Positions 18,241-62,460 of a stretch of 64,000 bases of DNA are shown here, piece after piece. Under the pieces are notes generated by a model. It worked only from the letters and a program-made list of their open reading frames with translations, ran no database searches and had not been told where the DNA came from. The first letter of the stretch is position 1; each line of letters starts with the position of its first letter. Made by a program: the position numbers and the translations under genes. Source of the stretch: Lysobacter silvisoli (GTDB taxonomy: Bacteria > Pseudomonadota > Gammaproteobacteria > Xanthomonadales > Xanthomonadaceae); the NCBI RefSeq assembly GCF_003382365.1, contig NZ_QTSU01000002.1:1-64000 (forward strand). Direction: 5' to 3'.

Positions 18241-18733
18241 TACTCGGTTGTTTGCCTGGGTGTTGGCCGCGGCCGCCGCGCTGCCGGCGCTGGCCGCCGC
18301 GCCGGAGTCCAAGCTGCCGGGGCCGGCCGAGATCCCGGCCGGCTACCGGCATTGGACCCACGTCAAAAGCGGCCTGATCCCGCCCGGCCACGCCGCCTAC
18401 GCCAGCTTCGGCGGCCTGCACCACATCTACGCCAACGATCGCGCCCTGGCCGGTTACCGCGACGGCCGCTACGCCGACGGCGCGGTGTTGGTCTACGACC
18501 TGTTCGACACCCGCGACACCGCCGACGGCAGCCTCGACCAGGGCCCGCGCCGCCACATCGACGTGATGGTCCGCGACGCCCGCCGCTACGCCGCCACCGG
18601 CGGCTGGGGCTATGCCGAATTCGCCGCCGGCGATACCCGCGACCGCCTCAGCGACCGCCAACGCAACGGCTGCGCCGCCTGCCACCGCAGTCGCGAGGCA
18701 CAGGGGCAGGTGTTCAGCGAGTGGAAGGACTGA
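18230..18733 (+). CDS. Cytochrome P460-family periplasmic haem protein
   Basis: Starting at a GTG inside the end of the preceding gene, the 167-residue precursor has a signal peptide to about residue 23. The mature part has the P460 pattern: an early YRHWTHVKSGLI segment, a central beta-rich region ending HIDVMVRD, and a C-terminal haem motif CAACH (residues about 149-153). P460 enzymes bind a cross-linked c-type haem and oxidise hydroxylamine or related compounds; many homologues have unknown roles. Whether the lysine cross-link is kept cannot be decided here. Confidence 0.85.
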   Translation: MRADTRLFAWVLAAAAALPALAAAPESKLPGPAEIPAGYRHWTHVKSGLIPPGHAAYASFGGLHHIYANDRALAGYRDGRYADGAVLVYDLFDTRDTADGSLDQGPRRHIDVMVRDARRYAATGGWGYAEFAAGDTRDRLSDRQRNGCAACHRSREAQGQVFSEWKD

Positions 18734-18780
18734 TCCCGAAGGCGGCCAGGGACGGCTGCCGGTTTTTGGAGTAACGGCTG

Positions 18781-19136
18781 CCCTCACCCCAACCCCTCTC
18801 CCGTAAACGGGAGAGGGGCTAAAGCGGCAGACGGCGTCGGATATGTCCCCTCTCCCGCCTGCGGGAGAGGGCTAGGGTGAGGGGGTGAGCGCAGCGAATG
18901 CTCTTGCTCCTCGCTCGGGCCCCGAACTCGCAGCCCAAATAGAGAATCCGGAGGGCGGCGCACAGGAGGTGCGCCGTTTTTCGCCGGCACAGGATGTGCC
19001 ATCGAAAAATCCCCGCGCCCACTCCGCTCTCGCACGGGAGCTCTGGCGTAGCGTTTTTCTTTGGTTACTTTCTTTTGACGCTTATCAAAAGAAAGTGACC
19101 CGGCCGCTTGCGGACGGAAGCTGTTGCTGTTGCTTC
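18781..19136 (+). repeat. Composite structured repeat, copy A
   Basis: The left part consists of CTCTCCCG...CGGGAGAGG hairpins bounded by CCCTCACCCC and GGGTGAGGGG. The right part (18948-19118) holds, in order: GGCGCAC-AGGAG-GTGCGCC (18957-18975), TTTTTCG..GGCAC-AGGAT-GTGCC..CGAAAAA (18977-19009), and a 16-bp stem around CTTTCTTTTGA/TCAAAAGAAAG (19063-19100). It ends with GCTT-GCGGACGG-AAGC. Loops carry CAGGAGG and CAGGATG. It lies between the convergent P460 and DUF2185 genes. Confidence 0.85.
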
Positions 19137-19172
19137 GACCAGCACACCCAAACACCTGCGCGAGTTCGGAGC

Positions 19173-19343
19173 TGGTCGCGGCTCACGCCGCTCCTACCCC
19201 AAGGCCGCAGAGCAGCCCCCCCGCCGACCGAGGGCTTGGTTGGAACTGTGGATTCGCGGTCGCAGCTTGCGCAGCTCCTACAGGGGCAAGCTTGGCGCTC
19301 GTAGGTGCGGATTCGCGGTCGCGGCTTAGGCCGCCCCTACCCC
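19173..19343. repeat. REP-like GTAGGAGC palindromes, cluster A
   Basis: Three related palindromic units (19173-19200, 19251-19286, 19301-19343) contain TCGCGGCTCACGCCGCTCC or variants, ending CTACCCC or CTACAGGGG. They resemble REP sequences of Pseudomonas and xanthomonads that are thought to be moved by REP-associated transposases. Together with copy A they fill the 627-base gap between genes. Confidence 0.75.
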
Positions 19344-19360
19344 AGAGCGCGCGGCGCGGA

Positions 19361-19708
19361 CTACGGGCACGGTTCGAAATCGGCGGTGCGACGCCATGGT
19401 GCGTCGCCCGTATCGCGTTCCCAGGCGCTGCCTATCGGGCCGGCCAGCACCTCGGCCAGGCTCGGATCCATCTGCAAGAAACTGCGTATGGGGCAGATCT
19501 TAGGCGGATGCGCATCCAGCCAGTCCTGGCTTTCCTCGCCGCTGAGGAACACCCAGCCCGAGTCGTGCTCGTTGTTCGGCGCCAACCGGTAGGCGAAACG
19601 CACCGGCCTGCGCTGCGGGCCCATCACTTCGTCCGAAGCCAGCACCAGCGGCGCGAACGCCGCGAACTTGTCCTGAGCCGCCGTTTGCCTCTTCTTGAAC
19701 GGCCACAT
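19361..19708 (-). CDS. DUF2185 (Imm33-like) domain protein
   Basis: The 115-residue protein carries the DUF2185 pattern: VRFAYRLAPNNEHDSGWVFLSGEE (given by family, seen at about 36-59), then DPSLAEVLAGPIGSAWERD. DUF2185 includes immunity proteins of polymorphic toxin systems (Imm33) but also stand-alone housekeeping-like members. No toxin gene is nearby. The gene begins 26 bases after the pntB stop on the same strand, so it may be the tail of that transcript. Confidence 0.75.
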   Translation of the reverse strand: MWPFKKRQTAAQDKFAAFAPLVLASDEVMGPQRRPVRFAYRLAPNNEHDSGWVFLSGEESQDWLDAHPPKICPIRSFLQMDPSLAEVLAGPIGSAWERDTGDAPWRRTADFEPCP

Positions 19709-37692: not shown

Positions 37693-38119
37693 CCCCCACC
37701 CCAACCCGCACCCCGGCCCGCCCGCAAAGCGGTCGGGCGTTCGGTGCAGCGCGAGCCAGTGGCCCGCAAACGCTGCCCCTCACCCCGCAAGCGGGAGAGG
37801 GGCTAAAAGCGGCGACGTCGGATCTGTCCTCTCTCCCGTTTACGGGAGAGGGCTAGGGTGAGGGGGTGAGCGCAACGCGCGAATGCTCTTGATTCTCGCT
37901 CGGGCCCTGAACTCGCCATTCCAATAGAAGACCCGGAGGGCGGCGCACAGGAGGTGCGCCGTTTTTCGCTGGCACAGGATGTGCCATCGAAAAATCCCCG
38001 CGCCAACTCCGCTCTCGCACGGGAGCTCTGGTGTAGCGTTTTTCTTTGGTTACTTTCTTTTGACGCTTATCAAAAGAAAGTGACCCGGCCGCTTGCGGTC
38101 GGAAGCTGTTGTTGTTGCT
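37693..38119 (+). repeat. Composite structured repeat, copy B
   Basis: This has an extra left module (CCCGCCCGC..GCGGTCGGG and GCGAGCC..GGCCCGC hairpins) before the CTCTCCCG hairpins. The right module repeats copy A: GGCGCAC-AGGAG-GTGCGCC (37942-37960), TTTTTCG..GGCAC-AGGAT-GTGCC..CGAAAAA (37962-37994) and the CTTTCTTTTGA stem (about 38051-38082). It lies upstream of msrA and downstream of apt and runs opposite to both. Confidence 0.85.
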
Positions 38120-44319: not shown

Positions 44320-44581
44320 CCCTCACCCCAACCCCTCTCCCGCAAGCGGGAGAGGGGCTAAGAGCAAACATCATCACCACTCACTGCAACCCGCACCCCG
44401 GCCCGACCGCCTAGCGGTCGGGCGTTCGGTGCAGCGCGAGCCAGTGGCTCGCAAGCGCTGCCCCTCACCCCGCAAGCGGGGGCTAACGCAGCGGCGACGC
44501 CGGATAGATTCCCTCTCCCGCTTGCGGGAGAGGGCTAGGGTGAGGGGATGAGCGCAACGCGCGAATGCTGTTGCTGTTGCT
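44320..44581 (+). repeat. Composite repeat, copy C, lacking the hairpin core
   Basis: The left module (CCCGACCGC..GCGGTCGGG, GCGAGCC..GGCTCGC and CTCTCCCG hairpins) is present, but the sequence passes straight from GCGAATGCT to GTTGCTGTTGCT. The AGGA-loop hairpins and the CTTTCTTTTGA stem are missing. The deletion ends lie in short direct repeats of the GCTNTTGCT type. It fills the gap before the zincin gene. Confidence 0.8.
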
Positions 44582-62024: not shown

Positions 62025-62460
62025 CCCTCACCCCAACCCGCACCCCGGCCCGACCGCACAGCGGTCGGGCGTTCAGTGCAGCGCGAGCCCATGGCTCGCA
62101 AGCGCTGCCCCTCACCCCGTGAACGGGAGAGGGGCTAAAGCACAAGCGGCGCCGGATGCATCCCCTCTCCCGTTTACGGGAGAGGGTTAGGGTGAGGGGG
62201 TGAGCGCGCGGCGCGAATGCTCTTGACCCTCGCTCGGGCCCCGAACTCGCCGTCCCAACAGCAGACCCGGAGGGCGGCGCACAGGAAGTGCGCCGTTTTC
62301 CGCTCGGGCAGGAGGCCCGATCGGAAAATCCCCGCGCACGCATCGCTCTCGCAGGGGAGCTCTGTCCAAGGACAGCGTTTTTCTTTGGTGACTTTCTTTT
62401 GACGCTTATCAAAAGAAAGTGACCCGGCCGCTTGCGGACGGAAGCGGTTGCTGTTGCTCC
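62025..62460 (+). repeat. Composite structured repeat, copy D, with compensatory stem changes
   Basis: The left module is as in copies B and C. In the right module, stem 1 is GGCGCAC-AGGAA-GTGCGCC (62276-62294). Stem 2 is TTTTCCG..CGGGC-AGGAG-GCCCG..CGGAAAA (62296-62328), differing from copies A and B on both sides so that pairing is kept. An extra CTGTCC-AA-GGACAG hairpin lies near 62361-62374 and the CTTTCTTTTGA stem follows. It lies between convergent genes. Confidence 0.85.

Follow-up and report, generated by a model that had tools for sequence, protein, structure and literature searches.

A dispersed repeat carries two neighbouring hairpins whose loops keep the motif CA(N)GGA(N)G, while the stems that hold these loops change compensatingly. 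It was found in a stretch of 64,000 nucleotides from Lysobacter silvisoli, which we call the window. An initial annotation had read the loops as CsrA/RsmA motifs, a reading that is supported by this persistence of the loops through stem replacement. As a prediction, the assignment of the loops as RsmA/CsrA sites is strongly supported by sequence evolution, and selection for RNA binding of the RsmA/CsrA type is likely to explain them. The element is probably an RNA-level docking element for RsmA, with a putative role as a distributed decoy.

Architecture and copies of the repeat

Within the window covariance model R1 finds three copies (Table 1), at 18948, 37932 and 62266, whose loops match those of copies A, B and D in the initial annotation, with which we equate them. 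The model comprises 25 diverse units out of 27 that were picked; the loci L119 and L180 were excluded as probable chance matches. For copy A, loops reading CAGGAGG and CAGGATG inside successive strong stems had been described, and both the sequence and the fold confirm them. The further claim that copies B and D keep this loop type on the same strand agrees with the model matches at 37932 and 62266. Copy D differs in the stem of hairpin 2 (CGGGC/GCCCG), its loop type being unchanged. Altogether the plus strand of the window has 27 hairpins in which a stem of at least 7 pairs carries a loop of 5-6 bases closed by C-G. Three of these have an A(N)GGAN loop, and the three are hairpin 1 of the three copies.

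Table 1. Coordinates of the repeat, its parts, its copies and the adjoining repeats in the window
Feature	Positions	Strand	Description	Basis or remark
Core, copy A	18948..19118	+	171 bases	R1 covariance model match starts at 18947
Hairpin 1	18956..18976	+	stem CGGCGCAC/GTGCGCCG, loop AGGAG, GGA at 18965-18967	RNA fold
Hairpin 2	18977..19009	+	outer stem TTTTTCG/CGAAAAA, inner stem GGCAC/GTGCC, loop AGGAT, GGA at 18992-18994	
Small variable hairpin	19026..19041	+	GCTCTC..GGGAGC, between hairpins 2 and 3	fold
Hairpin 3	19063..19100	+	GGTTACTTTCTTTTGA..TCAAAAGAAAGTGACC, second conserved module of the element	inverted repeat
Tail	19101..19121	+	CGGCCGCTTGCGGACGGAAGC, short hairpin, GGA variable	
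Copy B	37932..38103	+	98% identity to copy A over 37933-38103	model R1, 85.6 bits at 37932-38001
Copy D	62266..62335	+	unit of hairpins 1 and 2, loops CAGGAAG and CAGGAGG	model R1, 86.8 bits
Palindromic repeat, separate family	18781..18883		CCCTCACCCC..GGGAGAGGG	inverted repeats; flanks of first 30 copies
REP-type repeats, separate family	19163..19340		GTAGGAGCGGCG..GCCGCGACC, follow many core copies	direct repeat family

Folded as RNA, the plus strand of the core reaches a minimum free energy of -79 kcal/mol (z -4.0), which none of 200 shuffled sequences equalled; the minus strand folds nearly as well (z -3.8). The loops are closed by the pairs C18963-G18969 (AGGAG) and C18990-G18996 (AGGAT), and in the second loop the fold also pairs the A and the U such that a GGA triloop results. 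Six units of hairpins 1 and 2 from several lineages, each 71-72 nt long, gave fold z values of -3.3 to -5.6, and in all six both hairpins lie within a closing helix. A conserved C-G pair encloses each loop of five or six bases, and the fold often extends the pairing to the A and U that come next.

Several GGA triplets had also been pointed out in copy A. Six are indeed present on the plus strand of the core, but only two of them are conserved hairpin-loop sites. In many of the other copies GAA, GTA, CGA, GCA or GGG stands in place of the GGA of CCGGAGGG, the GGA in CGGGAGC is paired in the fold, and the GGA of GCGGACGGAAGC is lost in some relatives (e.g. CGAAAGC at locus L278). With two conserved sites per copy, the original comparison of six or seven GGA motifs with sponge RNAs is less supported. 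As for the remaining parts of the core, the small hairpin at 19026..19041 lacks conservation in the diverged copies inspected by eye. Hairpin 3, which has no GGA loop, is visible by eye in most of the diverged copies inspected, including those of other genera. The outline of the tail is likewise conserved by eye, its GGA being lost in some relatives.

The host genome (4.54 Mb, 7 contigs) contains many further copies, so that the repeat is more widely dispersed than the initial annotation could see. A DNA search found at least 40 places with 95-100% identity to the core, itself included, and a pattern search returned 34 exact matches of the hairpin-2 palindrome with an extra base before GGA and 31 without. 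After fetching of the loci, 68 copies carrying both hairpins were retained (69 rows, from which one false match on the plus strand of L086 was removed). These home copies were chosen by hairpin 2 at no more than one mismatch, hairpin 1 being unselected. Model R1 detects at least 117 copies in the genome at E <= 1e-4 (150 candidates scored); in some of them the stem of hairpin 2 is a different one, for example CGGGCA..GCCCG or AGGCCA..TGGCCT. The 15 home loci examined for unit number contained one unit each.

Neither the neighbouring palindromes nor hairpin 3 have a conserved GGA loop. The palindrome CCCTCACCCCAACCCCTCTCCCG..GGGAGAGGG, which precedes many core copies, is also present at 44340-44541 and 62170; its inner part recurs at 44340 and 44518, where model R1 finds no core. 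At L014, L022, L026, L084 and other home copies the stretch before hairpin 1 is replaced or extended by the GC-rich palindrome GCCTGCCCCCGCGAAGGCGGGGGGC. The REP-type repeat GTAGGAGCGGCG..GCCGCGACC lies on both sides of the single Y1_Tnp (RAYT-like) gene of the genome (C5:81067; L256 at about 5068). An origin of the core from this RAYT was rejected, since the GGA core does not flank the single Y1 transposase.

Conservation of the loops and covariation of the stems

Conservation among home copies alone is weak evidence, since at least 40 copies in the genome are 95-100% identical, and for hairpin 2 it is partly a selection effect because the copies were chosen via this hairpin. The unselected hairpin 1 keeps CAGGA in 67 of the 68 home copies. 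Across the core the mean column variation amounts to 3.1 of 68 copies, and the strongly variable hairpin columns are the N after GGA in hairpin 1 (24/68) and the N before GGA in hairpin 2 (33/68). Loops varying freely among copies, an observation that had been named beforehand as speaking against the CsrA/RsmA reading, were not found: only the N slots vary strongly.

Other genomes were covered by a scan of named genomes in which the outer bases CCGTTTTTCG and CGAAAAATCCC were fixed with 12-26 free bases between them and neither stem nor loop was demanded. It listed 121 matches, and the 118 in Lysobacterales or in unassigned records enter the loop counts; the other three (L158, L172 and L174) are not from Lysobacterales, and none of them has the loop motif. 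Among these 118 matches listed, 114 carry CA(N)GGA(N)G in hairpin 2, corresponding to 48 of 52 distinct sequences, with GGA present in 50 of the 52. For the unselected hairpin 1 the motif was found in 105 of the 118 matches listed and in 32 of 43 distinct strings. Random strings of equal length and composition contain the motif anywhere in about 1.4% of cases. The base before GGA may be missing or be A, C, G or T, and the slot after GGA is filled by T, C, G or A.

The exceptions in hairpin 1 comprise CACGA or GGG loops, single changes of flanking bases and three loci without a recognisable hairpin 1. GGA is lost to CACGA in L157 (twice), L228, L247, L290 and L292 and to GGG in L011 and L150. 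The CACGA change recurs across different genomes, and the GGA of hairpin 2 stays in place there. The distance between the two GGA triplets, measured without a distance limit in the search pattern, is 26-29 nt in each of the 102 listed matches (out of 118) that have both motifs. When all fetched loci are taken together, distinct motif hairpins that neighbour each other within 120 nt number 168, and 145 of these are spaced by 27-29 nt.

The stems, in turn, are different sequences in different species and yet remain paired. In the alignment of the 25 diverse units 88.1% of the cells are paired, changes on both sides occur in 16 of 22 pairs, and the covariation of 0.411 compares with 0.139 for shuffled alignments and at most 0.168 for slid controls. 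Alignment A4 holds 28 further distinct sequences and gave a covariation of 0.686 versus 0.209 shuffled with changes on both sides in 18 of 22 pairs, values that lean towards model R1 because the alignment was fitted to it; further pair types showed no excess (31 versus 31.6 in shuffles). The 8 stem pairs of hairpin 1 form in 100% of the A4 cells, and 7 of the 8 changed on both sides. Hairpin 2 is paired in 93.6% of cells with 11 of 14 pairs changed on both sides. At least one loop motif is present in all 28 sequences and both are present in 25.

Wobble pairs were counted as an indicator of the strand on which pairing occurs. For the unbiased hairpin-2 set 4 G-U pairs stand against 2 A-C pairs, without a significant strand signal, and for 75 aligned sequences the ratio is 12 to 4 (p 0.08, not significant). 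Strand-specific RNA pairing is thus not proven, since G-U hardly exceeds A-C. A tandem G-A mismatch (CGAG opposite CGAG) occurs in the hairpin-2 stem of L128, L133 and L248-L250, in Luteimonas and in some other genomes; tandem GAs in a stem are mentioned for the TwoAYGGAY RNA in a passage of PMC4333381.

Distribution, gene context and transcription signals

DNA matches to the core were found in 29 of 60 related genomes. Within the family, model R1 detected the repeat in 85 of 149 genomes, representing 41 of 54 genera (E <= 0.001), and in an order sample it did so in 30 of 121 genomes (E <= 1e-4), some of them from further families (labelled f12, f3 and f7). One genome from these further families has at least 41 matches. 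The per-genome copy counts in both surveys are lower bounds (at least 33 and at least 41 at the highest), and at the same settings many family genomes and most of the order sample gave no R1 match. Named carriers among the matches listed are Lysobacter, including L. antibioticus (loci L162 and L223), Luteimonas, Stenotrophomonas acidaminiphila, S. mori and [Pseudomonas] boreopolis. Plasmid and phage collections contained no match to the 171-base core.

Of 14 relatives inspected around the orthologue of the gene to the left of copy A, 2 have a unit within the fetched 1.5 kb on either side, from which it follows that element positions turn over between relatives. Inverted unit pairs were present in 7 of 13 loci of relatives that were checked. 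Pairs about 330-475 nt apart face each other in the genomes G025 and G071 (L278-L286) and diverge in G237 (L287-L290), these loci having been chosen partly since model matches already showed pairs there; their gene contexts are mixed without a clear pattern. Tandem repeats of units or of hairpin 2 were seen at L294, L157, L122, L179 and L193. L294 has three tandem units about 395 nt apart, and at some Root76 loci hairpin 2 occurs twice at a distance of 77-99 nt.

Neighbouring genes were called with a small codon-usage gene finder trained on the window, which missed a 115-aa frame to the right of copy A (19361-19708). Among the 66 home copies with both neighbours called, 47 lie between convergent genes, 19 between tandem genes and none between divergent genes. 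The other two, at contig ends and without a left gene, were left out of these counts, and one of the 68 home copies overlaps a called gene. In other species 72 of 118 copies could be classified, 4 overlapping called genes and 42 being near locus ends or without a neighbour. Here 40 copies are convergent, 29 tandem and 3 divergent, compared with 21, 98 and 32 background gaps. Since the contexts are mostly convergent and rarely or never divergent, the copies avoid promoters. REP-type repeats avoid promoters as well.

A preference for the sense strand is absent from the tandem contexts, with 7 sense versus 12 antisense copies at home and 12 versus 17 in other species. An element between convergent genes necessarily has one neighbour that is directed towards it in sense orientation. 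The orientation data give no support to obligatory sense read-through. The promoter scan found no sigma-70-like promoter in 18730-19360. An exact Gac box is absent from the genome, and with 1-2 mismatches 24 rows (12 palindromic places) were obtained on both strands versus 32 for the reversed control. By eye, the single place with one mismatch seems to lie within respiratory-chain coding sequence. Given the lack of a promoter-like site and of a sense-strand bias in tandem contexts, action as a sponge, which had also been proposed initially, is now less supported.

Relation to known RNAs and interpretation

For CsrA, SELEX provided the consensus RUACARGGAUGU with invariant ACA and GGA (PMC7652899). 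The CsrB repeats read CAGGA(U/A/C)G, the loops of CsrA sites mostly have six bases with AC and GU paired, and CsrA bridges pairs of sites at distances of 10-63 nt, optimally at more than 18 nt (PMC7652899). As predicted sites, loops 26-29 nt apart fit both this consensus and bridging by one dimer. Most SELEX hairpins have four or fewer contiguous pairs (PMC7652899), such that the long and stable stems of the element might weaken the predicted RsmA binding. The host genome has one csrA/rsmA gene, and its product carries leucine 4 (L4) and arginine 44 (R44).

At gathering scores Rfam returned nothing for the whole window. A relaxed search of 11 loci gave 18 matches, all below the gathering score: five to TwoAYGGAY and two to RsmW (both of clan CL00106), nine to microRNA models, one to PhotoRC-I and one to Chloroflexus-1. 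The matches to microRNA models had the lowest E-values of the 18 and were taken as chance. In a whole-genome search PrrB_RsmZ exceeded the Rfam cut-off in none of 37 genomes; for the other Rsm families the search covered the window and the 11 loci.

The element resembles CsrB/CsrC and RsmX/RsmY/RsmZ in the placement of GGA in the loops of hairpins and in the consensus CAGGA(U/A/C)G (PMC7652899). It differs from them in that RNAs of the CsrB/RsmZ type bear many sites on one molecule, about 18 in CsrB (PMC7652899), and are encoded by one or few genes, whereas the element has two conserved loop sites per unit and more than 100 dispersed copies, with no promoter or Gac box seen and no Rfam match over the cut-off. 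Two GGA motifs can accompany CsrA binding, as in McaS and GadY, CsrA-binding sRNAs that act by base pairing and contain at least two GGA (PMC7652899); these are E. coli sRNA genes, however, and the element is a repeat. A tandem pair of GGA-loop hairpins is also present in TwoAYGGAY (RF01731), a family proposed as CsrA-binding and discussed for Clostridia (PMC4333381). The best match to it scored 30.9 bits (E 0.25), short of the gathering score of 43. The loops of this family read A-Y-GGA-Y; those of the element follow A(N)GGAN, the N before GGA often being G or absent. The element differs in having hairpin 3 as an additional module and in being a high-copy repeat.

L119 was considered as a dedicated two-hairpin locus and set aside, as it adjoins tRNA-like sequence and by eye resembles a tRNA terminator on the other strand. 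The hairpin CGCACATGGATGTGCG, seen at L119 2000-2040 and in L258 at about 1939, has its GGA loops on the strand opposite the tRNA-like sequence; it was found once in an apparent rRNA-operon spacer and resembles a tRNA terminator or spacer hairpin. REP/BIME elements with RAYT are short intergenic palindromes that occur in many copies at gene 3' ends, sometimes as inverted pairs. The repeat is likewise a dispersed intergenic palindrome of many copies (at least 117 in the host), but its loops are conserved through stem turnover and the Y1 transposase is flanked by another repeat.

How the element may work can be outlined as follows. The transcribed plus strand would form two adjacent hairpins, whose CA(N)GGA(N)G loops would stand 26-29 nt apart and together make up a compact dock for one RsmA/CsrA dimer. 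Since the 3' flanks of convergent gene pairs harbour most of the home copies, transcription of the copies would chiefly come from read-through out of one adjacent gene. With at least 117 copies, the read-through RNAs would jointly offer more than 200 RsmA sites and may buffer free RsmA, in a lineage in which no CsrB/RsmZ-type sRNA was found (PrrB_RsmZ, 37 genomes). That such a distributed decoy is the main outcome of the element we regard as a serious possibility, a little short of probable.

The placement at gene 3' ends, which is biased in the same way in the host and in other species, could also reflect a function in cis, in which bound RsmA would act on the adjacent genes, through decay, termination or antisense read-through, with hardly any effect on the total amount of RsmA. 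Of the 68 home copies, 65 have a TTTTT run directly behind hairpin 1, which points in the same direction. The run is missing in L041, L042, L044, L278 and others while the loops stay, so that the T run in all members by which we would class the element as a terminator is not seen. As the tandem contexts also lack a sense bias and the position is not conserved among relatives, we consider such a cis role unlikely. Even simpler, the repeat could be an ordinary intergenic palindrome or terminator with CsrA-like loops that arose by chance or recent copying. This would agree with the near-identity of at least 40 genome copies and with the terminator-like appearance of hairpin 1 plus TTTTT, though the terminator scan did not list it. 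It is largely refuted by loops that outlast complete stem replacement across genera and in a second family, as well as by the rarity of the motif in composition-matched random strings, and is highly improbable.

The few wobble pairs and the dispersing behaviour of the copies keep a DNA-level explanation in consideration. In this case the hairpins would be extruded as single-stranded DNA and serve as the target of a protein for mobilisation or chromosome organisation, and the likeness to CsrA sites would be convergent. Such a role is in agreement with more than 100 dispersed copies, many of them near-identical, with species-specific stems and with inverted pairs, tandem arrays, locations that vary among relatives and the missing sense bias. 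It is at odds with the Y1 transposase, the mobilising protein that the search covered, next to which a different REP is found, and with the neighbouring palindromes and hairpin 3, where no GGA loop is conserved. Furthermore, on one strand A, GGA and the closing C-G pair are conserved while the N slots are free, which is the pattern of CsrA sites. Taken together we hold a DNA-level role to be quite unlikely. Returning to RsmA docking at the RNA level, a more far-reaching version can be formulated for the Lysobacterales: a dedicated RsmA-sequestering sRNA would have been replaced or supplemented by a proliferating repeat, which with more than 100 two-site docks per genome, transcribed by read-through, would set the free RsmA pool. 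The copies together would then represent a distributed post-transcriptional buffer based on copy number, and the repeat may owe its spread to an element that benefits when RsmA binds. This version is tentative and rather doubtful.

Xanthomonas, Lysobacter and Stenotrophomonas are absent from the main text of a study predicting sRNAs of the RsmA pathway (PMC5568370), and the terms 'repeat' and 'palindrom' are absent from a study of Legionella CsrA targets (PMC5338858). Within open-licence PubMed Central, a scope outside which most subscription journals and bioRxiv lie, we found no report of this repeat or of any repeat family with CsrA sites. In Xanthomonas RsmA is present, and to our knowledge an RsmB-type antagonist has not been identified there. 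An order-wide repeat with conserved paired loops of the RsmA type is a concrete candidate for an antagonist in the order of Xanthomonas. If the proposed reading is true, a REP-like repeat would carry a conserved protein-binding RNA motif, such that repeat proliferation would be tied to global regulation.
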